Translations under genes and position numbers: made by a program | Origin: Bacteroidales bacterium | Lineage (GTDB): Bacteria; Bacteroidota; Bacteroidia; Bacteroidales; P3 | Assembly: GCA_017647785.1 (NCBI GenBank) | Contig: JAGCJW010000006.1 | Span: forward strand, 1 to 64,000 | DNA: 64,000 bases | Direction of reading: 5' to 3' | Part shown: in pieces, positions 2,030 to 58,260 of the stretch | Numbering within the stretch: position 1 is the first letter of the stretch | Layout: the number at the start of each line of letters is the position of its first letter | Notes under the pieces: generated by a model | Database searches by the model: none | Seen by the model: only the letters and a program-made list of their open reading frames with translations | What the model was told of the DNA's origin: nothing

Positions 2030-3499
2030 ATGAAATTGAGAATTATAAATAAATTAAAGTACAACTACTCTTATTTGGCTGTGATAGGCTTTGCTATTTT
2101 ATATCTCTTGTTTTTGTCTCATAATCCTACTTCGGACTCTGTTTCATATGCCTATTCATCTTTACATGGAGAGGAATTATTACGTCCTCATCATTTATTA
2201 TATTGTTGGATTTGCCGTGTGATTTATTCTGTTTTTGCTTTTACAAATATAGAACCGATAACAATTTTTCAAACCTTTAATGCCATTCTTGCAGCAGGTA
2301 CATTACTTGTTTTGAGACGGATAATAAAGAGAGTAAATCGTGATGAGAGATTTTTGTTTTCAGCAATAGTTTTTTGTGGCTCATGTTTTGGATTTATGCG
2401 ATTTGCAACAGACAATGAAACATATATACTTCCATTGTTTTTTTCAATGCTTTCAATTTATTATTTACAGACTTTTTTGCTTGAAAACACTTTTGCACGA
2501 TTACTAAAAATGAGTTTGTCAATAGTAATTGCCTGTTTGTGTCATCAACTCAGTATTTTAGCTTACCTCTCATTATTTATAGGTTTGTTATTAAATAAAA
2601 GACGAAAATATGTTTTGTATTTCATTCTTTTTAGTTTGATAATACCGATAGTCTATTCGGTTGCATGTTGGCTTGTTACTAATCAACTAACTTTAAACGG
2701 ACTTTTCTCATTTGTTCTTCATGATTATGTTCAAGGTTATGCACAATCGCCAGACGTAAAGCAAGTTTTGATTCTAAGTGTTGTAAGTTTGGTAAGGACA
2801 TTTATTCAACTGCATGGAAATGTCTTGGAATTAATAAAATGTTTTCAAGTTTCAATGATTTTATTCTTTGTTTTATTCTTACCATTCTTGATTTTAGGAA
2901 TAGTAAATCTTTTCAAGAATCAAAAGAATGATATTTCGCTTTTTAGCAATAAAAGATTTGTAATCATACTTTGGATAATGCTTGTTTTATCATTTGTATT
3001 TGCAGCTCTTTCTAATGGTAATGCAGAGTTTATGATTATAATTCCTTTTATTCTCATAATGCTTTATGCTTACTATTTCACAAATTATAAGGCGATGCTT
3101 TTTATTGGCTTGGCTTTAATCTTATGGAATACAACTTTTGCTCTTTATCCACAAAGATTTATTAAACTTAACTGTAATGAAGAAGTTGTTTCGCTTATGA
3201 AAACTCATAAAAATGCTACCTTTATTTTGATAGATAAGCCTGCTGCAGAGAATCTTTATATGTATAAATATGGCAGTAAAGATTTACCTTTAGTCATTTC
3301 ATCTCACAAATATAATAAATCGAAAGTTTTAAGTGAAAAAGTCATCACAGATGTTATTGGTGCAAAGACTCCTTTGTCTCGTTCAAGCATACTAAATACA
3401 AGTGATTTGGATTTTAAAGAATACAAAAAAGATAGTATTCTTTTGAAATTTGAATCTTTAGGATTGAAAAGAGAGTTACATCTATTGCAATTACGATGA
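2030..3499 (+). CDS. Multi-pass membrane protein, GT-C glycosyltransferase-like
   Basis: A 489-residue protein with about ten or more hydrophobic segments and short charged loops, so an inner-membrane protein. After the first membrane segment (about residues 16-30) there is a periplasmic-type loop with an acidic site (PTSDSVSY, near 33-40) and a PHHLLY motif. This is the arrangement of GT-C glycosyltransferases that use lipid-linked sugars, where an Asp in the first loop is catalytic. The last 110 residues are soluble. I cannot assign it to a named family and the glycosyltransferase role is inferred from topology. It stands alone between divergent dnaG and rdgB, whose promoter overlaps its end region. 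Confidence 0.6.
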   Translation: MKLRIINKLKYNYSYLAVIGFAILYLLFLSHNPTSDSVSYAYSSLHGEELLRPHHLLYCWICRVIYSVFAFTNIEPITIFQTFNAILAAGTLLVLRRIIKRVNRDERFLFSAIVFCGSCFGFMRFATDNETYILPLFFSMLSIYYLQTFLLENTFARLLKMSLSIVIACLCHQLSILAYLSLFIGLLLNKRRKYVLYFILFSLIIPIVYSVACWLVTNQLTLNGLFSFVLHDYVQGYAQSPDVKQVLILSVVSLVRTFIQLHGNVLELIKCFQVSMILFFVLFLPFLILGIVNLFKNQKNDISLFSNKRFVIILWIMLVLSFVFAALSNGNAEFMIIIPFILIMLYAYYFTNYKAMLFIGLALILWNTTFALYPQRFIKLNCNEEVVSLMKTHKNATFILIDKPAAENLYMYKYGSKDLPLVISSHKYNKSKVLSEKVITDVIGAKTPLSRSSILNTSDLDFKEYKKDSILLKFESLGLKRELHLLQLR

Positions 3500-8697: not shown

Positions 8698-8958
8698 ATG
8701 ACATCTTTATCATTATTATTAGAAGCTGTTGCTAACCCAACAATTGGTTATGGTTTAGCAGGCATTGGAGCAGGTATCGCTGCTGTAGGCGCAGGTATAG
8801 GTATTGGAAATATCGGACGTAATGGAATGGACGCCATTGCTCGTCAACCTGAAGCAACGGGAGATATTCGTTCTAATATGATTATTGCAGCTGCGTTAGT
8901 AGAAGCTGTTGCTTTGTTCGCTAATGTGGTTTGTTTGTTAGTTATATTGATGAAATAA
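8698..8958 (+). CDS. atpE: ATP synthase F0 subunit c
   Basis: Forms the rotating membrane ring of the F-type ATP synthase. The 86 residues make two hydrophobic helices joined by the polar loop RNGMDAIARQPEA, with the conserved RQP. The ion-binding carboxylate is E69 in ALVEAVALF. The residue after it is Ala rather than Ser/Thr, and the first helix reads GAGIGIGN with Ile where sodium-type rings carry Gln. From known c-ring chemistry this predicts proton rather than sodium coupling. Uniquely for the region, no atpB lies upstream; the operon starts here from its own promoter. Confidence 0.95.
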   Translation: MTSLSLLLEAVANPTIGYGLAGIGAGIAAVGAGIGIGNIGRNGMDAIARQPEATGDIRSNMIIAAALVEAVALFANVVCLLVILMK

Positions 8959-9539: not shown

Positions 9540-10097
9540 ATGAATAGTTTTAAATTACAAACTCGTTATGCTCAGTCTTTGTTTGATCTTGCACAAGAGA
9601 ATAATGCAATCGACAGAGTTTATGAGGATATGTTATTAATTAAGAAGGTTTGTGAAGAATCTCCGCAATTGAAGGCTATTTTGAAAAATCCTGTGATTAA
9701 GCCTTCAAAAAAGAAAAGTATAATTCACGATATCTTTTCTAGCAAGGTAGAACAAATTTCTATTCTTTTTATGGAATTGTTAGTTACAAAAAGAAGAGAC
9801 GTTATCTTGTTTGAAATAGCAGATAGATATACTGAATTGTACAAGGAGTTTAACCACATAAAAACTGTTAGATTTACAACAGCTCAAGTTCTTGATGAGG
9901 TGATTGTAGATGATATTAGAAGAGAGATTGAAGAAAAATTATCTTCTAAAATAGATTTACAGTTATTTGTTAATCCTAAATTGTTAGGTGGTTTCTCTCT
10001 AACTGTAGAAGGAAAACAATATGATGCAAGTTTCAGTAAACAAATAACAAAATTAAAAAAGGAATTTAACAAGAATATATACGAAAGAATATTCTAA
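9540..10097 (+). CDS. atpH: ATP synthase F1 subunit delta
   Basis: Links the top of F1 to the peripheral stalk. The 185-residue protein begins with a helical N-domain (RYAQSLFDLAQENN, the family signature RYAxALFxLA) and ends with GGFSLTVEGKQYDASF, matching the conserved C-terminal GG(F)xxxxxxxxxDxS signature. It lies between atpF and atpA in the normal bacterial gene order, which supports the assignment. Confidence 0.93.
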   Translation: MNSFKLQTRYAQSLFDLAQENNAIDRVYEDMLLIKKVCEESPQLKAILKNPVIKPSKKKSIIHDIFSSKVEQISILFMELLVTKRRDVILFEIADRYTELYKEFNHIKTVRFTTAQVLDEVIVDDIRREIEEKLSSKIDLQLFVNPKLLGGFSLTVEGKQYDASFSKQITKLKKEFNKNIYERIF

Positions 10098-49085: not shown

Positions 49086-50684
49086 ATGGGTGCTACGAAT
49101 TGTCCGGAAACGCCGAGGCAGCGAATGATCTCGATGATGTACTTGGTTTACACAGCGATGTTAGCCTTGAACGTTTCTGCAGATATAATTAATGCTTTCG
49201 TTACAGTAGGGGATAGTGTTGAGGTAACTAATAAACTTATGGCAGGAAAAGCCGAAAGTACTTACATTGCTTTTGAAAATGCTTACAACGGAAACCCTGG
49301 AAAAGTAGGAGATAACTGGGCGAAAGCACAAGAAGTAAGAGAGAAAACTAAAAAGATGTTGGACTATATAGACAACATTAAATATGAGCTACACGTTGCT
49401 GTTGATGGTTTACAAGGTGGAGTTGCAGAATCTAAAAAATTATTAAATGAAAAAGGTTTCTCTGCAATTGTAAAGAAAGACAACTATGATATTCCAACAA
49501 ACTATTTCTTAGCAGGAACAGAAGATGGTTCAGCAGGTAAGGCTTTAGAATTAAGAAAAAAGATAGAAGCTTACCAAGCAGATATGCTTACATATGCTCA
49601 AAGTGATGCATATAAGAAGCTTCTAAAAGGAATGCAAATTATCACAGATGGAACTTGGAAAGATGCACAAGGCCAAGATAAAAACTGGCAAATGTACAAT
49701 TTCTATCATACTATTATCACAGCTGATATGGTGCTTTTGAACAAGCTTAAATCAGAAATTCAAAATGCTGAAATGGACTTGGTAAATCACCTTTATTCAC
49801 AAATATCTGCTGATGACTTTAAGTTTGATCAAGTTGTTGCAAGAGTATTACCAAAATCTACTTACATTATACAAGGTGGTCAATATGAAGCAGATGTAAT
49901 AGTTGCAGCATACGACTCTAAGAGTGAACTTAGAGGAGAAGTTAGAGGACAAAATATCGTTGGCGATTCAGGTATGTTGAAATTGAAATTTGGTGCAGGT
50001 GCATTAGGACAACAAAAATACAAAGGTACAATCTTCGTTAAAAAAGAATCAGGAGAAGTTCCTTACGAATTTGAAAGTGAATATTTTGTTGCTGCACCTT
50101 CTGCAACAATCTCTCCAACAAACATGAACGTATTCTATATTGGAGTTGATAACCCAGTATCAATATCTGTACCAGGAGCAAACTCAAAAGATATCACTGC
50201 AACAATATCAGGTGCAGGTGGAGTTTTGACAAAGGTAAAAGATGGAGAATATACAGTTAAAGTTACTAAACAAGAAACTTGCCAAATCAATGTAAGAGCC
50301 AAAATAGGTGGTAAAGATATGGATATGGGAGTTATGAAGTTTAGAACAAAACGTATTCCTAACCCTATTGCAATGGTAGGTAAACAACAAGGAGGTAAAA
50401 TAGACAAGGAAGTGTTAGCTGCACAAGGAGGACTTCGTGTAGAAAAAGGAGACTTTGACTTCCCAGTAACATATAGAATATCTTCATTTAAAATACAAGT
50501 TATTGGAGGTGGGGATGCAAAACCTGCAACTTCTGTAACAGGTGCTAAATTCCCACCAGACATTATTGCTCAAATTAAAAAGGCAAGAAGAGGTGCTAAA
50601 ATATATATAGAAGATATTACTGCTATTGGACCTGTCGGAGAAGTACAAGTATCTAATAAAGATATGATATTTACAATTAAATAA
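49086..50684 (+). CDS. gldM: T9SS periplasmic shaft protein GldM/PorM
   Basis: Spans the periplasm from the GldL motor to the GldK/N ring. The 532-residue protein begins with NCPETPRQRMISMMYLVYTAMLALN (quoted in part), one membrane helix typical of all GldM. The body is the four-domain periplasmic part: a helical D1 domain (residues 50-220) then three Ig-like domains (residues 225-532; FKFDQVVARVLPKSTYII opens the second). Length is standard (F. johnsoniae GldM is about 513). gldN follows after about 10 nt. Confidence 0.95.
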   Translation: MGATNCPETPRQRMISMMYLVYTAMLALNVSADIINAFVTVGDSVEVTNKLMAGKAESTYIAFENAYNGNPGKVGDNWAKAQEVREKTKKMLDYIDNIKYELHVAVDGLQGGVAESKKLLNEKGFSAIVKKDNYDIPTNYFLAGTEDGSAGKALELRKKIEAYQADMLTYAQSDAYKKLLKGMQIITDGTWKDAQGQDKNWQMYNFYHTIITADMVLLNKLKSEIQNAEMDLVNHLYSQISADDFKFDQVVARVLPKSTYIIQGGQYEADVIVAAYDSKSELRGEVRGQNIVGDSGMLKLKFGAGALGQQKYKGTIFVKKESGEVPYEFESEYFVAAPSATISPTNMNVFYIGVDNPVSISVPGANSKDITATISGAGGVLTKVKDGEYTVKVTKQETCQINVRAKIGGKDMDMGVMKFRTKRIPNPIAMVGKQQGGKIDKEVLAAQGGLRVEKGDFDFPVTYRISSFKIQVIGGGDAKPATSVTGAKFPPDIIAQIKKARRGAKIYIEDITAIGPVGEVQVSNKDMIFTIK

Positions 50685-50695
50685 TATTTGTGATT

Positions 50696-51562
50696 ATGAA
50701 AAGAATAGAAGTTATATTATTAGGCTTATTTTTGTTCTTGTCACCAAGTTTGTTTGCTCAAGTGGTAGATGAACCAGAAGATAATTCAGATGGATTCTAT
50801 GTAAAAGAATCAGAGCTTATTGAAAATGGTAAAAAGGCATTTGAATTCCCTTATGTTAGAGAAGCAGATGTTGTTTGGGCTCACAGAGTTTGGAGAGTAA
50901 TAGACTTTAAAGAAAAAATCAATCAAGTATTCTACTATCCAGTTACTCCTGACCAAGGTAGAAAAAACCTTTACACAATTTTAGATGAAGCTTTGACTGA
51001 AGGACGTATAAGAGGCTTTGATGATGATATGTTCTCTAAGGAAGTAAATTGGGAAGAATTGAAATCAAACCTTGGAGGATCTGAAGTCATATCAAGATGG
51101 GAAACAGATATGGACGGTATGGAAATAGAAACATTTGATACTGTTTACACATCTTTAAAAGCAGAAGATATCAAGATGTTGCGTATAAAAGAAGATTGGT
51201 TTATTGACAAAAATCGTTCTGTAGAAGACGTAAGAATAATAGGCTTTGCTTTAATATATTTGCAACAAAAAGAAGAAGGAGTTCCTCCTGTACAAATACC
51301 TCTTGCTTGGATAAGATACAATGATCCTGAAGTTAGAGAATTATTGGCAAATGCAGAAGTATATAATATGGATAACGATAGAGCAAGACGTTCATACGAT
51401 GATATATTCCGTAAAAGAATCTTCTCAAGTTATGTTATCAGAGAATCAAATGACTTCAATAGACGTATAGAAGACTATGCGAGTGGTGTAGATGCTTTAT
51501 TAGAATCTCAAAGAGTTGAAGATTATTTATTCGAAATGGAAGAAGATATGTGGGAATACTAA
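50696..51562 (+). CDS. gldN: T9SS ring protein GldN/PorN
   Basis: Partner of GldK in the periplasmic ring. ATG 50696 is preferred over an in-frame GTG at 50690 because it gives a signal peptide (RIEVILLGLFLFLSPSLFAQ, in part). The 288-residue mature protein shows the family's VVWAHRVWRVIDFKEKINQ and LRIKEDWFIDKNR segments and ends ESQRVEDYLFEMEEDMWEY. It is the last gene of the operon, followed by a strong hairpin. Confidence 0.93.
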   Translation: MKRIEVILLGLFLFLSPSLFAQVVDEPEDNSDGFYVKESELIENGKKAFEFPYVREADVVWAHRVWRVIDFKEKINQVFYYPVTPDQGRKNLYTILDEALTEGRIRGFDDDMFSKEVNWEELKSNLGGSEVISRWETDMDGMEIETFDTVYTSLKAEDIKMLRIKEDWFIDKNRSVEDVRIIGFALIYLQQKEEGVPPVQIPLAWIRYNDPEVRELLANAEVYNMDNDRARRSYDDIFRKRIFSSYVIRESNDFNRRIEDYASGVDALLESQRVEDYLFEMEEDMWEY

Positions 51563-51585
51563 ATTAAGTATTATTCATAAAAGCT

Positions 51586-51625
51586 AAAAAGAGAATGACA
51601 ATTTAAAAGGTCATTCTCTTTTTTT
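51586..51625 (+). terminator. Terminator of the T9SS operon
   Basis: Perfect 14-bp arms 51586-51599 and 51610-51623 with a 10-nt loop, followed by further T. It starts 23 nt after the gldN stop. Confidence 0.85.
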
Positions 51626-51680
51626 GTATCCGCAAATTAAAACTTGATTTCAGCAACATAATTCTTTGTTTTATTTTTTT

Positions 51681-51741
51681 ACTTCTTTAAGGTAATACTT
51701 CTACCTTCAAGAAGTAGAAATATTACTTTCAAAAGGTAGAA
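51681..51741. repeat. Nested inverted repeats between gldN and the PIG-V-like gene
   Basis: The main hairpin pairs 51692-51704 with 51714-51726 (12 of 13 positions) around a 9-nt loop. Competing pairings are 51681-51687 with 51709-51715 (7 bp) and 51699-51707 with 51733-51741 (9 bp). No coding sequence is present from 51563 to 51841; the rest holds the gldN terminator and a promoter. Confidence 0.55.
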
Positions 51742-51785
51742 CATTACAACTAAGTTAAAATAGTATTATCAAAGATTTTTTCCTT

Positions 51786-51816
51786 TTTGTTGGCATTGAA
51801 ATAATTGTTACTTTTG
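51786..51816 (+). promoter_or_regulatory. Promoter of the PIG-V-like gene
   Basis: TTTG at 51786-51789, exactly 19 nt, then TACTTTTG at 51809-51816, exact consensus. It lies 25 nt before the start codon. Confidence 0.65.
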
Positions 51817-51841
51817 CAGTGGTTATTAGCTTTTTTAAAAT

Positions 51842-53197
51842 ATGAAACAAATAAATTCAAGGAGTACTTTAATATTCTCTTTATCTTCTATCTTTTTATT
51901 TTTTATTTTGGTTTTTGGATTGCATATTCTTTTGCAAAGGGAGAGTGTTCATATGCCTTTAAAGAATATCTTTCCTACTTATGATGTTTCTTTTGATGAG
52001 AATTATTCAAAGAGCGTGAGTTTATCAGATAAGCCTTTTGAGAAGATTTCTTCTGAAAAGATGACGGTTTGGGACGGCTCGCATTATGATTGGATAAAGA
52101 AAACTAATTATGAAAGAGAAAAGGATTTTGCTTATTACCCTTTGTTTCCTTTCTTTTGGAAGGCTACAGGGCTTTCTACTCTTGGAATAAGCATTTTGAA
52201 TATCTTCCTTTTTGCAATAGGAATGTTCTTTATGCTTAAAATATTTAAGGATAAGTTAAGCTTTAGTGGCGTTTTACTATTGTTATGCGTGCCTTATATG
52301 GTTATTTTTATGATGCCATATTCTGAGGCGTTGTATTTTATTTTTATTGCTTTTGGACTTTTTGGTATCATAAAGGAAAAGTATTGGATTTATTTTCTTG
52401 GATTCCTTTTTGCTTCTATGACAAAGTCCTCTTCTTTACTTTTTGTGATTTTATTTTTATGTTTAGAAGGCCTTTATGCTTTCAATCATCGTGATATTGT
52501 TTTGTTCTTTAAAAGGTTTTTAAAGGCAATTTTACCAGTTGTATTGGGAATGTTTTTAGTTATGTGCTTTCAATATTTAATGGGAGCACCTTCGTTTTTT
52601 CAGTCAATTATTTCGCAAAGATATTGGGGAAAGTATCTTTCTTTGCCAGAATTGCCTTTTAGTTTTTGGTCAAACGAGGGTAGGAGCATAATAGTTCCTT
52701 TCCTTTATTTGTATTTTTTACCTATGTTGGTAGTGTTAGCAAGGGAATTTGTGCTTTTTTTGAGAAAAAAACAAGATTATGTTTTTGATAAATGGAAGTA
52801 TGTTAGATTGATTTGTATTCTCTTTCTTGTAGGTAATGTGTTTACTGCTTTGTTTACTCAACATGGAGGTTTATATTCTTTGGCGCGTTACCTTTTAGCA
52901 ACTCCTTTTTTTGTGTTTTTATTGTTTGATACTTTTGCTAAAAACAGAAATAATCTTTCTCAAATACTCTGTTTATCAATAGGTTTAATAACAATAATTC
53001 TTTGTAAGGACTATTTTACAAAGATAGATTTTTTTGGTACATATTTAGTTGTAATTACTTCTTTTATGGCGTTTTTTCATAGAAGGATTACTTCTAAATT
53101 ATTGTATCCTTTATTGGTAATTATTGCGTTAATGAATGTGTGTTGGACGGCTTATATGTTTAATTGTTTTCTTTTAGATGGTTGGATTTTTACCTAA
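51842..53197 (+). CDS. Gpi18/PIG-V-like membrane glycosyltransferase
   Basis: A 451-residue inner-membrane protein with about eleven hydrophobic helices. After the first helix the extracytoplasmic loop (35-95) carries VWDGSHYDWI and AYYPLFPFFW, the signature of the Gpi18/PIG-V mannosyltransferase-like GT-C family (WDxxHY, then FFPLYP). The Asp in WDG is the expected catalytic residue. The donor would be a lipid-linked sugar and the acceptor is unknown. It is a single gene with its own promoter between the T9SS operon and HU. It may modify exported glycans. Confidence 0.78.
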   Translation: MKQINSRSTLIFSLSSIFLFFILVFGLHILLQRESVHMPLKNIFPTYDVSFDENYSKSVSLSDKPFEKISSEKMTVWDGSHYDWIKKTNYEREKDFAYYPLFPFFWKATGLSTLGISILNIFLFAIGMFFMLKIFKDKLSFSGVLLLLCVPYMVIFMMPYSEALYFIFIAFGLFGIIKEKYWIYFLGFLFASMTKSSSLLFVILFLCLEGLYAFNHRDIVLFFKRFLKAILPVVLGMFLVMCFQYLMGAPSFFQSIISQRYWGKYLSLPELPFSFWSNEGRSIIVPFLYLYFLPMLVVLAREFVLFLRKKQDYVFDKWKYVRLICILFLVGNVFTALFTQHGGLYSLARYLLATPFFVFLLFDTFAKNRNNLSQILCLSIGLITIILCKDYFTKIDFFGTYLVVITSFMAFFHRRITSKLLYPLLVIIALMNVCWTAYMFNCFLLDGWIFT

Positions 53198-53200
53198 TGT

Positions 53201-53231
53201 TTTGTAATTCAAATTTTTTTCTATATCTTTG
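53201..53231 (+). promoter_or_regulatory. Promoter of the HU gene
   Basis: TTTG at 53201-53204, exactly 19 nt, then TATCTTTG at 53224-53231, exact consensus. It gives a leader of about 45 nt to the HU start at 53282. Confidence 0.7.
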
Positions 53232-53281
53232 CAAACCGATTTTTTAGTAAAAAATAGAATAATTAAATAACATAACAAGAA

Positions 53282-53581
53282 ATGACAAAAGCAGAAATCG
53301 TTGCGGAAATTGCACACAGAACAGGTATAGAAAAGATTTTAGTTCAAGAGTCTGTAGAAGCTTTTATGACTGTATTGAAAGAAGCTTTGACAAAAGAAAA
53401 TGCTGAAAACGTATATTTAAGAGGGTTTGGAAGTTTCATAGTTAAGAAAAGAGCAGAAAAAACAGGTAGAAATATCTCTAAAAACACTACAATAATCATC
53501 CCTGCTCATTATATTCCATCTTTTAAACCTGCAAAGGTATTTATGGAATCAGTAAAGAAAAATGTAAAACAAGTAAAATAA
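53282..53581 (+). CDS. HU/IHF-family DNA-binding protein
   Basis: A 99-residue nucleoid protein that bends DNA. It has the HU fold: N-terminal helices (TKAEIVAEIAHRTG, VQESVEAFMTVLKEAL), GFGSFIVKKRAEKTGRN at the start of the beta arm, and IPAHYIPSFKPAKVF in the C-terminal part. The length and the change of the usual Pro-Gln-Thr in the arm tip to NISKN are typical of Bacteroidetes HU/IHF proteins. It precedes the 29-residue basic gene by 22 nt. Confidence 0.92.
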   Translation: MTKAEIVAEIAHRTGIEKILVQESVEAFMTVLKEALTKENAENVYLRGFGSFIVKKRAEKTGRNISKNTTIIIPAHYIPSFKPAKVFMESVKKNVKQVK

Positions 53582-53603
53582 GCATTAAATAATATTTGAA
53601 GTT

Positions 53604-53693
53604 ATGCCAAGCGGAAAAAAGAGAAAAGGTCATAAAATGGCTACTCACAAACGTAAAAAACGTTTAAGAAAGAATAGACATAAAAAGAAATAA
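53604..53693 (+). CDS. 29-residue basic microprotein, AURKAIP1/COX24-like (possible ribosomal protein)
   Basis: An ATG-to-stop frame of 29 residues starting MPSGKKRKGHKMATHKRKK and ending RKNRHKKK, with 15 Lys, Arg or His in the second half alone. The same very basic sequence, found at this position in Bacteroidetes genomes, is annotated as an AURKAIP1/COX24-domain protein, homologous to mitochondrial ribosomal mS38 and bacterial bS22-like small-subunit proteins. It lies between HU and RNase E/G, 22 nt after HU. It is too short for standard gene finders. The link to the ribosome is from family knowledge and needs testing. Confidence 0.8.
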   Translation: MPSGKKRKGHKMATHKRKKRLRKNRHKKK

Positions 53694-53726
53694 TTTTTCT
53701 TTTGGACTTAGTGTCTATGTAAGGTT

Positions 53727-53767
53727 ATTGCGAAACATTTAGACATAATTGCTTGGTGTTTCGCAAT
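53727..53767 (+). terminator. Hairpin between the microprotein gene and RNase E/G
   Basis: Perfect 11-bp arms 53727-53737 and 53757-53767 followed by ATTTTTA. It could end the HU-microprotein transcript or fold in the leader of the rng mRNA, whose start is only 35 nt away. Confidence 0.65.
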
Positions 53768-53802
53768 ATTTTTATGTTTAATCATCTTAAAATTATATTC
53801 GA

Positions 53803-55356
53803 GTGGATAAAGATTTGATTATAGATGCATCTTCTGGTTCGGGAGTGGATATTGCACTTCTTGAAGATAAGAAGTTAGTTGAATTGCATCGTTCAAAATC
53901 AGAATCGCAACACATTGTCGGTGATATTTATCTTGGGCAAGTTAAAAGAATTTTACCAGGATTGAATGCCGCGTTTGTTGATGTCGGTTATGAGAAAGAT
54001 GGTTTCCTACATTATCTTGATTTAGGTTTGTATTATTCCTCAATGAAGAGGTTTACAAAATTAGGAATAAATAATTCATTAAATAATATAGACTTTAAAT
54101 CATTAAAAGAGCCTAATTTAGAGAAAAATGGTTTAATAACAAATTATGTTAAACAAGGACAACTTATATTGGTGCAAATAAGCAAAGAACCAATATCTAC
54201 AAAAGGTCCACGTTTAAGTGCTGAAATATCCTTTGCAGGAAGATTTCTTGTTTTAGTTCCATTCTCTAATAAGGTTTCAATTTCACAAAAAATAAAAAAT
54301 TCTGAAGAAAGAAATCGTTTAAAAAGGTTAATTCAAAGCATTCGTCCAGAAAACTTTGGGATAATTATAAGAACTGTTGCTGAAGGACAATCAGTTGCAG
54401 ATTTGGATAATGATTTGAAGGATTTGATGTCAAAATGGGAAGAATTGATAAGAAAACTTCCTAAATCTCTTCCACCTTGTAAAATGATTTCGGAAATGGA
54501 TAAGTCTTCTGTTTTAGTAAGAGATATGCTTACCGAAGAGTTTACAAATATCTATGTTAATGATGTAGATATGTATGAAGAATTGAAGACTTATATTTCT
54601 AATATTTTCCCTAAGATGGAAGATATTTTGCATCTTTATAAGTTGCAAACCCCTATTTTTGAACAGTTCAGTGTAGCTAATCAAATACGCAGTTCTTTTG
54701 GGAAAGTTGTAACCATAAGAAGTGGGATTTATTTAGTGATTGAACAAACGGAAGCTATGCATGTAATAGATGTAAATAGCGGCCATAGAATTAAATCAAG
54801 TCAGGACCAAGAAGAAAATGCCTTAATGGTAAACTGTGAAGCAGCAGTTGAGATTGCACGCCAAATGAGGTTAAGAGATTTAGGTGGTATAATAGTAATT
54901 GACTTTATAGATTTGAATTTAGCATCTAACAGAAAGATTCTTCTTGATAAAATGATGGAAGAGCTTAGTAAAGATAAAGCAAAACATACTGTATTACCTT
55001 TAAGTAAGTTTTGCTTGATGCAAATAACCCGTCAGAGAGTAAGACCTGCAGTAGATGTTGATTTATCTGAAGTGTGTCCATTATGTAATGGAAGCGGTAA
55101 GATAAAATCTTCTATGGTAGTAGTTGATGAAATAGAGAGTGATATTAAATACTTATCTCAAGAACAAAACGAAAAGCAACTAACAATCGTTGTACACCCA
55201 TTTGTTCGTTCATATTTAATATCAGGACTATTGAAATCTATTCGCAGAAAATGGATGAAATTGTATAAAATTAAAATAAAAGTTATTTCATCTTCTGATT
55301 ATGGAATAATGGAGTATTCTTTTTTGAATGCCGAAAACGAAGAAATAAAGTTGTAG
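53803..55356 (+). CDS. rng: Ribonuclease E/G family endoribonuclease
   Basis: Cytoplasmic single-strand-specific RNase for rRNA maturation and mRNA decay. The 517-residue protein begins at GTG 53803 (MDKDLIIDASSG); no in-frame ATG lies close upstream. It has the S1-like RNA-binding domain (GDIYLGQVKRILPGLNAAFVDVGYEKDGFLH, quoted in part), the catalytic DVNSG and IVIDFIDL (two metal-binding Asp), and the zinc-link CPLCNGSGK that joins dimers. Without the long C-terminal tail of RNase E it is the short RNase G type. The small basic gene and HU lie upstream. Confidence 0.94.
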   Translation: MDKDLIIDASSGSGVDIALLEDKKLVELHRSKSESQHIVGDIYLGQVKRILPGLNAAFVDVGYEKDGFLHYLDLGLYYSSMKRFTKLGINNSLNNIDFKSLKEPNLEKNGLITNYVKQGQLILVQISKEPISTKGPRLSAEISFAGRFLVLVPFSNKVSISQKIKNSEERNRLKRLIQSIRPENFGIIIRTVAEGQSVADLDNDLKDLMSKWEELIRKLPKSLPPCKMISEMDKSSVLVRDMLTEEFTNIYVNDVDMYEELKTYISNIFPKMEDILHLYKLQTPIFEQFSVANQIRSSFGKVVTIRSGIYLVIEQTEAMHVIDVNSGHRIKSSQDQEENALMVNCEAAVEIARQMRLRDLGGIIVIDFIDLNLASNRKILLDKMMEELSKDKAKHTVLPLSKFCLMQITRQRVRPAVDVDLSEVCPLCNGSGKIKSSMVVVDEIESDIKYLSQEQNEKQLTIVVHPFVRSYLISGLLKSIRRKWMKLYKIKIKVISSSDYGIMEYSFLNAENEEIKL

Positions 55357-55371
55357 GAAAACCAAAGAAAT

Positions 55372-55407
55372 AAAAAAAGAGAGAAATCAAATTTCTCTCT
55401 TTTTTTT
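55372..55407. terminator. Bidirectional terminator between rng and the tRNA cluster
   Basis: Perfect arms 55372-55387 and 55391-55406 with a 3-nt loop, the outer part A/T and the core GAGAGAAAT. It can end the rng transcript and the oppositely oriented tRNA transcript. Confidence 0.85.
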
Positions 55408-55408
55408 G

Positions 55409-55482
55409 TGATCTAGTCAGGATTCGAACCTGAGACCTACTGCTTAGAAGGCAGTTGCTCTATCCAGCTGAGCTACTAGACC
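55409..55482 (-). tRNA. tRNA-Arg (TCT)
   Basis: Acceptor GGTCTAG pairs with CTAGATC (one G-T pair). The anticodon stem ACTGC/GCAGT encloses CTTCTAA, giving anticodon TCT. The T-arm is CAGGTTCGAATCCTG. CCA is not encoded. It is the last of three tRNA genes of one transcript. Confidence 0.95.
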
Positions 55483-55520
55483 AACCCTTAAAAAAAAGAA
55501 CCATTCTCTTGGTTCCTTTG

Positions 55521-55595
55521 TCGGGGTAGCAGGATTCGAACCTGCGACCTCCACATCCCAAATGTGGCGCGATAACCGGACTACGCTATACCCCG
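55521..55595 (-). tRNA. tRNA-Pro (TGG)
   Basis: Acceptor CGGGGTA pairs with TACCCCG; the first base C is usual for tRNA-Pro. The anticodon stem CCACA/TGTGG encloses TTTGGGA, giving anticodon TGG. The T-arm is CAGGTTCGAATCCTG. CCA is not encoded. It is the second gene of the tRNA transcript. Confidence 0.95.
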
Positions 55596-55624
55596 TTTTT
55601 GTTTTTCCCAACCTAGAATCTTCT

Positions 55625-55714
<90 letters not shown>

Positions 55715-55756
55715 AATTCTATCAAGAAACACTGCGTTTCTTGTGAATTGGGATTG

Positions 55757-55787
55757 CAAAATTACGTCTTTTTTTTAAAGTACCAAA
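55757..55787 (-). promoter_or_regulatory. Promoter of the tRNA Ser-Pro-Arg transcript
   Basis: On the minus strand, TTTG (55787-55784), exactly 19 nt, then TAATTTTG (55764-55757), an exact consensus match, 42 nt before the tRNA-Ser 5' end. The remaining region 55788-55938 is AT-rich, with no gene or clear structure seen. Confidence 0.7.
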
Positions 55788-55938
55788 CTTTTTTCAATAA
55801 TTTTTTAATTAATACGTCTTCTTTTTTATTTTTATTATTGTAAATCAATAGATTAAAATTTTAGTTTATTGATTTATTTTATTGTATTTATAATTTTTGA
55901 TACTTTGTTTACGTTATCTAATGATTAATAATAAGTAA

Positions 55939-57006
55939 ATGCAAGGTAAATTTAAGATTTTTGATGATAATCTTCTTCTATATGAGGCTATACTTTCTGA
56001 TATTCGTGCTGCAAAGCAGAGTGTTTGGATAGAGGTTTTTCGCTTTAATAAAGACGCAATGGGAGAAAAGTTCCGTTCAGTGCTTTATGAAAAGCTAAAA
56101 GAGGGTATAGAAGTTAAATTACTTGTTGATGCGTGGGGAACGGGTTATGATAAGACATTCTTTGAGCTGTTGATAAAAGAAGGAGCAGAAGTAAGAATTT
56201 ATAGGAAAATGAGATTTGGCAAGACTTTTCTTGCGAAAAATCATTGTAGAAATCATAGAAAATTAATAATTATAGATTCTGAAATAGCTTATTTAGGTTC
56301 TTCTAACATATCTGCTTATTGTTTAAATTGGAGAGAATTGAATATTAGAATCAAAGAAGAGGATTTATTAACTATATTTCGTCGTTCGTTTAAAGATAGT
56401 TTTCGCTCTTTTGAAAGATATTCATTTAAAAATATAGGCTCTAAAAGACATCTTCATTCTGGAAAGTGGATGTTCATTCAAGATTTTCCGAATATCTATC
56501 GTCAAAAGATAAAAACGAAATATGAAAGAATGATTTCACAAGCAACTAATGAAATTATAATAGAAACACCTTACTTTCTTCCTGGACATAATTTAAGAAA
56601 ATTGCTTAGTGAAGCAGCGCAAAGGGGAGTTAATACCATCATAGTAACACCTTTGCATTCTGATGTGAAATTTGTAGATATAATAAGAAGGCACTATTTA
56701 GGCCCACTTCATCAAGCAGGAGTTAAGTTCTTCTTTTATACACAAGGAAATTTACACTCTAAAGGTTTGATGATAGATAATTCTATATTTTCAATCAGTT
56801 CTGCAAATTTTGATTATAGAAGTTTTAGATATCAATATGAATTAGCTCTTATAGGAAACGAAGCAGAACTTATTCCTAGTCTTAGAGAACATTTTGATTC
56901 TTCGCTAAAGAATTGCACTTCATTTGATTTTCATGAATGGAAAAAGCGTTCTTTGTTTCAAAGAATCTCAGAAGTTATTTTATTACCGTTTAGATATTTG
57001 TTTTAA
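55939..57006 (+). CDS. Phospholipase D-domain protein, cardiolipin synthase-like
   Basis: A 355-residue protein with two HKD motifs, NHRKLIIIDSEIAYLGSSN (His about 105) and LHSKGLMIDNSIFSISSANF (His about 273), each followed by the Ser/Asn-rich SSN or SSANF. This is the layout of bacterial cardiolipin synthases, which make cardiolipin from two phosphatidylglycerols. There is no N-terminal membrane pair, so it is shorter than the E. coli ClsA form and more like ClsB. A hydrophobic tail near FQRISEVILLPFRYLF could attach it to the membrane. It stands alone between the tRNA cluster and the sigma-54 activator. Confidence 0.88.
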   Translation: MQGKFKIFDDNLLLYEAILSDIRAAKQSVWIEVFRFNKDAMGEKFRSVLYEKLKEGIEVKLLVDAWGTGYDKTFFELLIKEGAEVRIYRKMRFGKTFLAKNHCRNHRKLIIIDSEIAYLGSSNISAYCLNWRELNIRIKEEDLLTIFRRSFKDSFRSFERYSFKNIGSKRHLHSGKWMFIQDFPNIYRQKIKTKYERMISQATNEIIIETPYFLPGHNLRKLLSEAAQRGVNTIIVTPLHSDVKFVDIIRRHYLGPLHQAGVKFFFYTQGNLHSKGLMIDNSIFSISSANFDYRSFRYQYELALIGNEAELIPSLREHFDSSLKNCTSFDFHEWKKRSLFQRISEVILLPFRYLF

Positions 57007-57012
57007 ATATAC

Positions 57013-57025
57013 TGACAAATTGTCA
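57013..57025. promoter_or_regulatory. Palindrome in the sigma-54 activator promoter
   Basis: A perfect 6-1-6 inverted repeat, TGACAA-A-TTGTCA, ending 8 nt before the -7 box and thus inside the spacer region. It is 36 nt before the start codon. Symmetry and place suggest an operator; the cognate protein is unknown. Confidence 0.55.
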
Positions 57026-57033
57026 TAAATTCT

Positions 57034-57041
57034 TATCTTTG
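57034..57041 (+). promoter_or_regulatory. -7 box of the sigma-54 activator-aroA promoter
   Basis: TATCTTTG, 19 nt before the start codon; exact to TAnnTTTG. The expected -33 TTTG is absent, and the palindrome occupies this part of the promoter. Confidence 0.6.
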
Positions 57042-57060
57042 CACCTTAAAACTAAGAGTA

Positions 57061-58260
57061 ATGCAAAATTTAGATGTATCTGAAATAAAGAAAAATTTTA
57101 GAATTTACGGAAAGGATACTAAATTAGATGAAGCTATAAGCATAGCTGCTAGAGTTGCTCCAACAGATTCAACTATTGTTATAACAGGAGAAAGTGGGGT
57201 TGGAAAAGATGTTTTCTCTAGAATTATACATCAAAATAGCAAAAGAAAACAAAATAAATACGTTGCAGTAAACTGTGCTGCTATTCCAGAAGGAACAATA
57301 GAAAGCGAATTGTTTGGTCATATAAAAGGTTCTTTTACAGGTGCAGATAAAGATAGAAAAGGATATTTTGCAGAAGCAGATAAAGGAACAATCTTTTTAG
57401 ATGAAATAGGGGAATTACCTATAACTACTCAATCAAAACTATTAAGAATTTTAGAAAATGGAGAATTGATACCTGTAGGTTCTTCACAAGTTTCAAAAGT
57501 AGATGTTAGGGTTATAGCTGCTACTAATGTTAATTTGTATAGAGCAGTTGAAAAAGGAAAATTCAGAGAAGACCTTTATTATAGATTAAATCAAGTAGTA
57601 ATCAATGTCCCTTCTTTAAGAGAGAGAAGAGATGATATTCCTATATTATTTAGATTCTTCGCTTCAGAACATGCAAGCAAGTATCAAGTACCTAAAATAG
57701 AACTTACACCAGAAGCAGTAGAGTATTTAAAGAATTATCGTTGGAAAGGAAATGTAAGAGAGTTAAAAAACATTGCAGAAAGAATTTCTATACTTGAAAT
57801 GAATAGAGAAATTGATTTGCATACTCTTCAAAAATACATTCCAATATTAGAAAAGTTACCTGTAGTTACAGATACAAGAGGAGAGGAAACTAACGAAAAT
57901 AGAGATGATATAATCAGAATGGTGCTGCAAAATCACAAAGATGTACTGCAACTTAGAGATGAAGTAGACCAGTTAAAGCAAATAGTTAGACAATTATTTG
58001 AAACAACTAATAGCATACGTAGAGAACCTTTACTTTTGCCTTCTGAAGTAGAAGAAGAATTTGTTACTATGGAAGAAGAAAGAAGAGATATAGTAGAAGA
58101 AACAGCTCCTCAAAATCTAAAAGAGATAGAAAAGCAAACGATTATAAAATCTTTAGAAAGACATAATGGTAAAAGAAGTGCCGTGGCAAAAGAATTAGGT
58201 TTTTCAGAACGTACTCTATATAGAAAATTATTAGAATATGGTTTAAATACTAAAAATTAA
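57061..58260 (+). CDS. Sigma-54-dependent transcriptional activator (no receiver domain)
   Basis: A 399-residue bacterial enhancer-binding protein. The first 20 residues lead directly into the AAA+ ATPase (about 20-250): Walker A GESGVGKD (43-50), GSFTGA loop (a variant of GAFTGA that contacts sigma-54, about 90), Walker B GTIFLDEIG and the arginine-finger region FREDLYYRLNQ. Residues 280-330 are charged and helical. The C-terminal Fis-type helix-turn-helix is RSAVAKELGFSERTLYRKL (about 373-394). Without a receiver or PAS domain its activity must be controlled by level or another protein. aroA begins on the next base. Confidence 0.93.
   Translation: MQNLDVSEIKKNFRIYGKDTKLDEAISIAARVAPTDSTIVITGESGVGKDVFSRIIHQNSKRKQNKYVAVNCAAIPEGTIESELFGHIKGSFTGADKDRKGYFAEADKGTIFLDEIGELPITTQSKLLRILENGELIPVGSSQVSKVDVRVIAATNVNLYRAVEKGKFREDLYYRLNQVVINVPSLRERRDDIPILFRFFASEHASKYQVPKIELTPEAVEYLKNYRWKGNVRELKNIAERISILEMNREIDLHTLQKYIPILEKLPVVTDTRGEETNENRDDIIRMVLQNHKDVLQLRDEVDQLKQIVRQLFETTNSIRREPLLLPSEVEEEFVTMEEERRDIVEETAPQNLKEIEKQTIIKSLERHNGKRSAVAKELGFSERTLYRKLLEYGLNTKN

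Follow-up and report, generated by a model that had tools for sequence, protein, structure and literature searches.

The closest described counterparts of the gene considered here are bS22 proteins modelled in ribosome structures. In Borrelia burgdorferi, bS22 (8fmw chain V) is reported to be bound in a pocket of 16S rRNA helices h2, h27, h44, and h45 and to contact H68 of the 23S rRNA; it occupies the same pocket as Flavobacterium johnsoniae bS22, to which it is closer than to mycobacterial bS22 (PMC10618245). The same report describes the Borrelia gene, which has a GUG start, as unannotated before the structure and, given its lack of transposon insertions, as among the essential candidates (PMC10618245). 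The F. johnsoniae protein is chain 5 of 7JIL, an entry cited as the F. johnsoniae ribosome (PMC9976891, PMC9723584). For C. acnes bS22, the site is placed between h27, h44, and h45, and identity to the F. johnsoniae protein is given as 37% (PMC10085706). Actinobacterial bS22 and mitochondrial mS38/AURKAIP1/COX24, which are likewise short, basic, and helical, are described as using the same rRNA pocket (PMC10618245, PMC10085706).

The locus compared with these systems lies in the window, i.e., the whole 64-kb stretch of Bacteroidales DNA that was analysed, and comprises the following features:

53282-53581, plus strand: HU/IHF-type DNA-binding protein gene, 99 residues (Pfam Bac_DNA_binding, E 5.4e-25)
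53604-53693, plus strand: predicted bS22 gene, 29 codons and a stop (open reading frame, PDB matches, and conservation)
53726-53768, plus strand: terminator-like hairpin of 14 pairs, then a T-rich run (folding and inverted repeats)
53803-55356, plus strand: RNase E/G gene (rng) with a GTG start (TIGR00757, 438.9 bits against a cut-off of 325.95)

The initial annotation had described an extremely basic 29-codon frame with an intact ATG, squeezed between HU and rng, and this description is exact: the ATG stands at 53604, the TAA occupies 53691-53693, and both flanking genes are identified by their Pfam and TIGR00757 matches. The frame begins 22 bases after HU and encodes the peptide MPSGKKRKGHKMATHKRKKRLRKNRHKKK, followed by the stop. 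Lysine (11), arginine (5), and histidine (3) dominate its composition, so that 16 of the 29 residues are K or R, and aspartate and glutamate are absent. No other open reading frame of 20 to 60 residues in the window has a K+R content of at least 50%, and none arose in 30 windows shuffled in 2-base blocks. The peptide is present as a single copy in the source genome. At position -3 of its start codon the base is G, as against the A described as favoured in F. johnsoniae (PMC6847099). An Rfam scan of 50000-58000 returned three tRNAs only; these form a cluster (tRNA-Arg, tRNA-Pro, and tRNA-Ser) at 55408-55714 on the minus strand, just after rng and opposite to it.

A phmmer search of the window peptide against PDB chains gave three matches, the first two over its full length. 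The best was chain 10 of 9i5v (E 1.4e-9), to which it is identical without a gap at 26 of 29 positions, differing by S3N, G9R, and R22K; next came 7jil chain 5 (E 5.1e-9), likewise ungapped, with 25 of 29 positions identical and the differences G9R, M12V, L21A, and K23A. Both chains are one residue longer. The Borrelia chain, from another phylum, was matched over residues 1-28 (E 1.3e-5). The depositors' names differ: 8fmw chain V is 30S ribosomal protein bS22, 7jil chain 5 is 30S ribosomal protein S22 or 50S ribosomal protein L38, depending on the entry, and 9i5v chain 10 is an AURKAIP1/COX24 domain-containing protein. We also built an alignment (A1) of 26 rows, consisting of 25 of 31 distinct peptides, including the window's own, and the Borrelia chain. 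Its profile found the same three PDB chains with E values of 1.7e-14 to 8.3e-13, and no further chain up to E 10, the Borrelia chain being itself a row of the profile. Thirteen of the 29 columns in A1 are invariant (M1, P2, G4, K6, K11, H15, K16, R17, K18, K19, R25, H26, and K27), and the window peptide, as one of the 26 rows, has all of them. In size and composition (28 to 30 residues, more than half K or R, and no acidic residue), as in its full-length similarity to chains modelled in ribosomes, it agrees with bS22 of the Bacteroidota/spirochaete type. These matches bear out the proposal of a bS22-type small-subunit ribosomal protein. The suggestion that such a protein had been overlooked does not hold, since the family is already known from ribosome structures; by sequence comparison, the window gene is predicted to encode an already known, ordinary ribosomal protein bS22. 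This fixes the annotation of a gene prone to being missed by automatic callers, and the frame is no longer a mystery.

A frame of just 29 codons in A-rich intergenic DNA could have opened by chance, and the absence of comparable frames from the shuffled windows already speaks against that. Conservation speaks against it further. Among 392 genomes sampled evenly across the phylum, with a completeness of at least 90% requested, 377 gave a bS22 match (E <= 0.1), as did 58 of 61 near relatives. At 18 loci the identical peptide is encoded by 16 distinct DNA sequences; these differ at 28 positions (24 third and 4 first codon positions) without a single amino-acid change, against an expectation of 17% synonymous changes if single bases of the bS22 sequence were altered at random. 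The peptide is, on this evidence, predicted to be under purifying selection. Together with the ribosome-chain matches, phylum-wide presence and synonymous-only variation refute a chance frame, which we regard as vanishingly improbable, and we consider it settled at the level of sequence that the frame is a predicted translated, constrained gene orthologous to bS22.

Short frames beside HU and rng, which the initial annotation had proposed looking for, are found in relatives. Of the 88 loci examined first (L001-L088), 45 have HU as the immediate upstream neighbour, 49 have rng as the immediate downstream neighbour, and 34 have both; a neighbour was called by its similarity to the HU or Rng of the window (E < 1e-3), a threshold that misses diverged neighbours, and contig ends truncate a few loci. 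In a second set, the best 80 of at least 164 confirmed loci from genome_contigs, the corresponding counts are 54, 78, and 52. The frequent HU neighbour in both sets is what one would expect of a nucleoid peptide that works with HU on DNA and not in the ribosome. The other 43 of the 88 loci, however, have no HU upstream at the thresholds used, and relatives of the peptide are described as modelled in the 30S pocket (PMC10618245), so that we hold this alternative to be very unlikely and retain the ribosomal assignment. Within the window's family, each of two genomes from one genus has a pair of bS22 genes (G403, at L055 and at L222 near 3114-3200; G413, at L053 and C60:4322-4408), and the copy in L053 adjoins neither HU nor rng.

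The initial annotation had also placed the peptide in an AURKAIP1/COX24-like family related to mS38 and bacterial bS22-type proteins. The bS22 part of this claim stands; the kinship with COX24/mS38 found no counterpart in our searches. The window peptide matched nothing in Pfam or NCBIfam and fell short of the cut-off of COX24_C (PF08213), which was matched weakly by 7 of the 26 A1 rows (best E 0.018). An hhalign comparison of A1 with actinobacterial bS22, represented by three sequences, gave a probability of 10% and an E value of 0.0031 over 16 columns, and the A1 profile found neither mS38 nor actinobacterial chains in the PDB at E <= 10. In contrast to the shared site and build, a significant sequence relation to actinobacterial bS22 or mS38 was not found. 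The argument for kinship comes from the shared binding site described in the structural papers (PMC10618245, PMC10085706); we do not file the window peptide under COX24_C, and its sequence would not by itself demonstrate common descent with COX24/mS38.

Taken together, the gene very probably specifies a Bacteroidota/spirochaete-type bS22, a predicted helix of the rRNA pocket. In the proposed mechanism, HU and bS22 would probably share a transcript that stops at the hairpin, and the peptide made from it would be a very basic helix that sits where the subunits meet, in the 16S rRNA pocket of h2, h27, h44, and h45, and touches H68 of the 23S rRNA upon subunit joining. As such, bS22 would staple rRNA near the decoding site and add an inter-subunit contact. 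The pocket facing the 50S subunit is seen in the structures of relatives, and we infer the same placement in this organism; bS22 may in turn influence head movement, initiation, subunit joining, or fidelity. An extra-ribosomal job for the protein, e.g., as an antimicrobial peptide, is suggested by the report that C. acnes bS22 inhibited the growth of three bacteria as well as E. coli cell-free translation (PMC10085706). That protein, however, is just distantly similar to bS22 of the window type, and we regard such a second role as unlikely.

The hairpin assigned to the end of the transcript has stem arms at 53726-53739 and 53755-53768, which form 14 pairs ahead of the T-rich run. The 109-nucleotide intergenic stretch between bS22 and rng folds at -27.3 kcal/mol (z -4.80), with none of 200 shuffles as low. 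The same stem recurs in three relatives from the genus (L031, L035, and L037), and many other relatives have different inverted repeats in this gap. Against a terminator, the gap is just 10 to 26 bases in 4 of 49 rng-flanked loci (L027, L034, L058, and L059), too short for a hairpin. A consensus scan for promoters and terminators, with a loop limit of 8, did not list the hairpin at 53726-53768 and yielded about as much as it did on shuffled sequence. In the window, the hairpin would act as the terminator of the HU-bS22 transcript.

Two newer by-products of the survey are the loss of bS22 in some lineages and bS22-like genes on phage contigs; the main interest lies in the phage copies, not in the window gene. 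Of the 15 genomes among the 392 that gave no match, seven belong to family f37 and five to genus g90 (family f25); the others are two f19 drafts and an f48 genome. With the A1 profile at E <= 10, these 15 remain negative, as do three further matchless relatives (73%, 61%, and 90% complete), and the same scan recovers three g90 positives. Within g90, bS22 is present in 5 of 12 genomes and missing in 7. In f37, it is present in 3 of 27, all of one genus, and missing in 24; among f37 genomes with a completeness of 90% or more and a contamination of 5% or less, 1 of 14 has it.

In five g90 genomes without bS22 (L171-L175: G274, G286, G389, G227, and G338), HU still adjoins the convergent next gene. 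The distance between the HU and next-gene matches is 83 to 180 bases in these five, versus 296 in G081, which has bS22. Measured by sequence, the gaps are 118, 171, and 137 bases in three g90 genomes without the gene and 290, 388, and 278 in three with it, those of L174 and L175 being taken from match coordinates. In these five genomes, bS22 is missing from its place and the locus has closed up, from which it follows that some lineages can do without the protein. In f37, the HU surroundings of five genomes were covered; the sole frame of 20 to 60 residues there with K+R of at least one third, found in one genome, is 60 residues long and looks unrelated. Natural losses within a bS22-bearing phylum provide matched pairs for probing the role of the protein in translation.

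Two candidate correlates of loss were rejected. An acidic, salt-in proteome is unsupported as a cause, as the ratios of acidic to basic residues overlap within g90 (1.35-1.43 in five genomes without bS22, 1.35-1.45 in three with it); these ratios come from single 20-kb samples of 20 genomes and the first 20 kb of the window. They were 0.90-1.37 in six f37 genomes without bS22, 1.24 and 1.41 in the other two f25 genomes (both with bS22), and 0.82-1.24 in the window and four genomes from elsewhere in the sample, all of which have bS22. A compensating 16S rRNA change was sought in the seven of 22 queried genomes that gave a 16S match, and no column of their alignment told the four lacking bS22 apart from the three that have it. 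The 16S 3' end in one of the seven (L219, G012) is GGAACATCTCATTT, versus GGATCACCTCC in the other six, which is an altered anti-Shine-Dalgarno sequence. Altered ends of this kind occur in some Flavobacteriales.

On the viral side, three IMG/VR contigs encode full-length bS22-like peptides of 30 residues with the common form MSGAKKKK..KI.THKRKK.SRK.RHKTK. They are listed here with bit scores from a joint profile that includes these same peptides, so that the scores are not independent:

L221:10001-10093 (L231/L221), on a contig of 297,623 bases: MSGAKKKKPSKISTHKRKKQSRKNRHKTKK, 50.0 bits
L230, around 8832-8870, minus strand, on a contig of 18,050 bases: MSGAKKKKSSKISTHKRKKQSRKNRHKTKK, 49.7 bits
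L235:3342-3434, on a contig of 231,285 bases: MSGAKKKKKIKIATHKRKKRSRKDRHKTKR, 47.3 bits

The bacterial profile confirmed one locus among 61 IMG/VR pattern matches, with 62% identity to the window peptide by tblastn (E 2e-6, computed against the candidate stretches). The two further contigs came from DNA patterns built on the core motif, and a search with the phage alignment recovered two of the three, L235 not being confirmed. The two closest phage genes differ by 9 synonymous codon changes and 1 non-synonymous one, and the remaining two pairs by 12 and 6 each. All three contigs carry phage genes: a terminase large subunit on the 297,623-base contig (phrog_2, E 2.5e-41), an endolysin on the 18,050-base contig (phrog_7, E 7.5e-23), and a tail sheath (E 4.7e-55), tail tube (E 3.3e-28), and baseplate hub (E 2e-13) on the 231,285-base contig. 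The largest also encodes a CHU_C type IX secretion domain (E 4.6e-13), which points to a Bacteroidota host for that contig.

Both large contigs also carry bS21 (PF01165, E 1.2e-11 and 1.6e-12; TIGR00030, 40.1 and 47.6 bits against a cut-off of 28.95), as do the Bacteroidota phages described by Chen et al. 2022 (PMC9723584); the 18-kb contig gave no bS21 match. The bS21 of those phages is likewise a phage-encoded small-subunit protein, although bS22 is a different one, and the curated genomes of that study are described as being without other ribosomal protein genes (PMC9723584). We put at even odds a reading in which Bacteroidota phages carry their own bS22, with bS21 on the two large contigs, and in which these proteins, swapped into the host 30S subunit close to the decoding site and the 3' tail of the 16S rRNA, would redirect ribosomes to phage mRNAs. 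The hosts would be Bacteroidota, as one Bacteroidota-type domain on one contig suggests, and incorporation into the 30S subunit and takeover are likewise proposed. If this reading is true, phage bS22 beside bS21 would make ribosome takeover testable with two small proteins, in phages whose hosts do not use Shine-Dalgarno sequences.

Gene callers usually have a lower length limit close to the 93 bases of this gene, which would account for the absence of phage bS22 from the surveys of phage ribosomal proteins cited below. We found no report of it in our searches of the open-access literature, and mention elsewhere is possible. As far as the main texts go, bS22 or S22 is absent from Mizuno et al. 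2019 (PMC6375957) and the PhiMa05 paper (PMC13157829), and S22 from Chen et al. 2022 (PMC9723584). Nor was bS22 found in Flavobacterium phage immuto_2-6A (160 kb; best 8.1 bits) or in a 40-kb piece of LR756501.1 (best 6.5 bits). A tblastn search of phages and plasmids with short peptides gave one match, to residues 1-15 only, pointing to masking of the remainder by the low-complexity filter, and a DNA search of the phage collection with the phage bS22 gene gave none. The remaining scanned IMG/VR pattern loci scored at most 23.4 bits with the joint profile and, L233 apart, are taken as chance matches. L233, on an IMG/VR contig of 17,874 bases without a bS21 match, holds a weaker bS22-like frame at 9545-9649 that reaches 23.4 bits and has a TTG start with GAGGAGG upstream.
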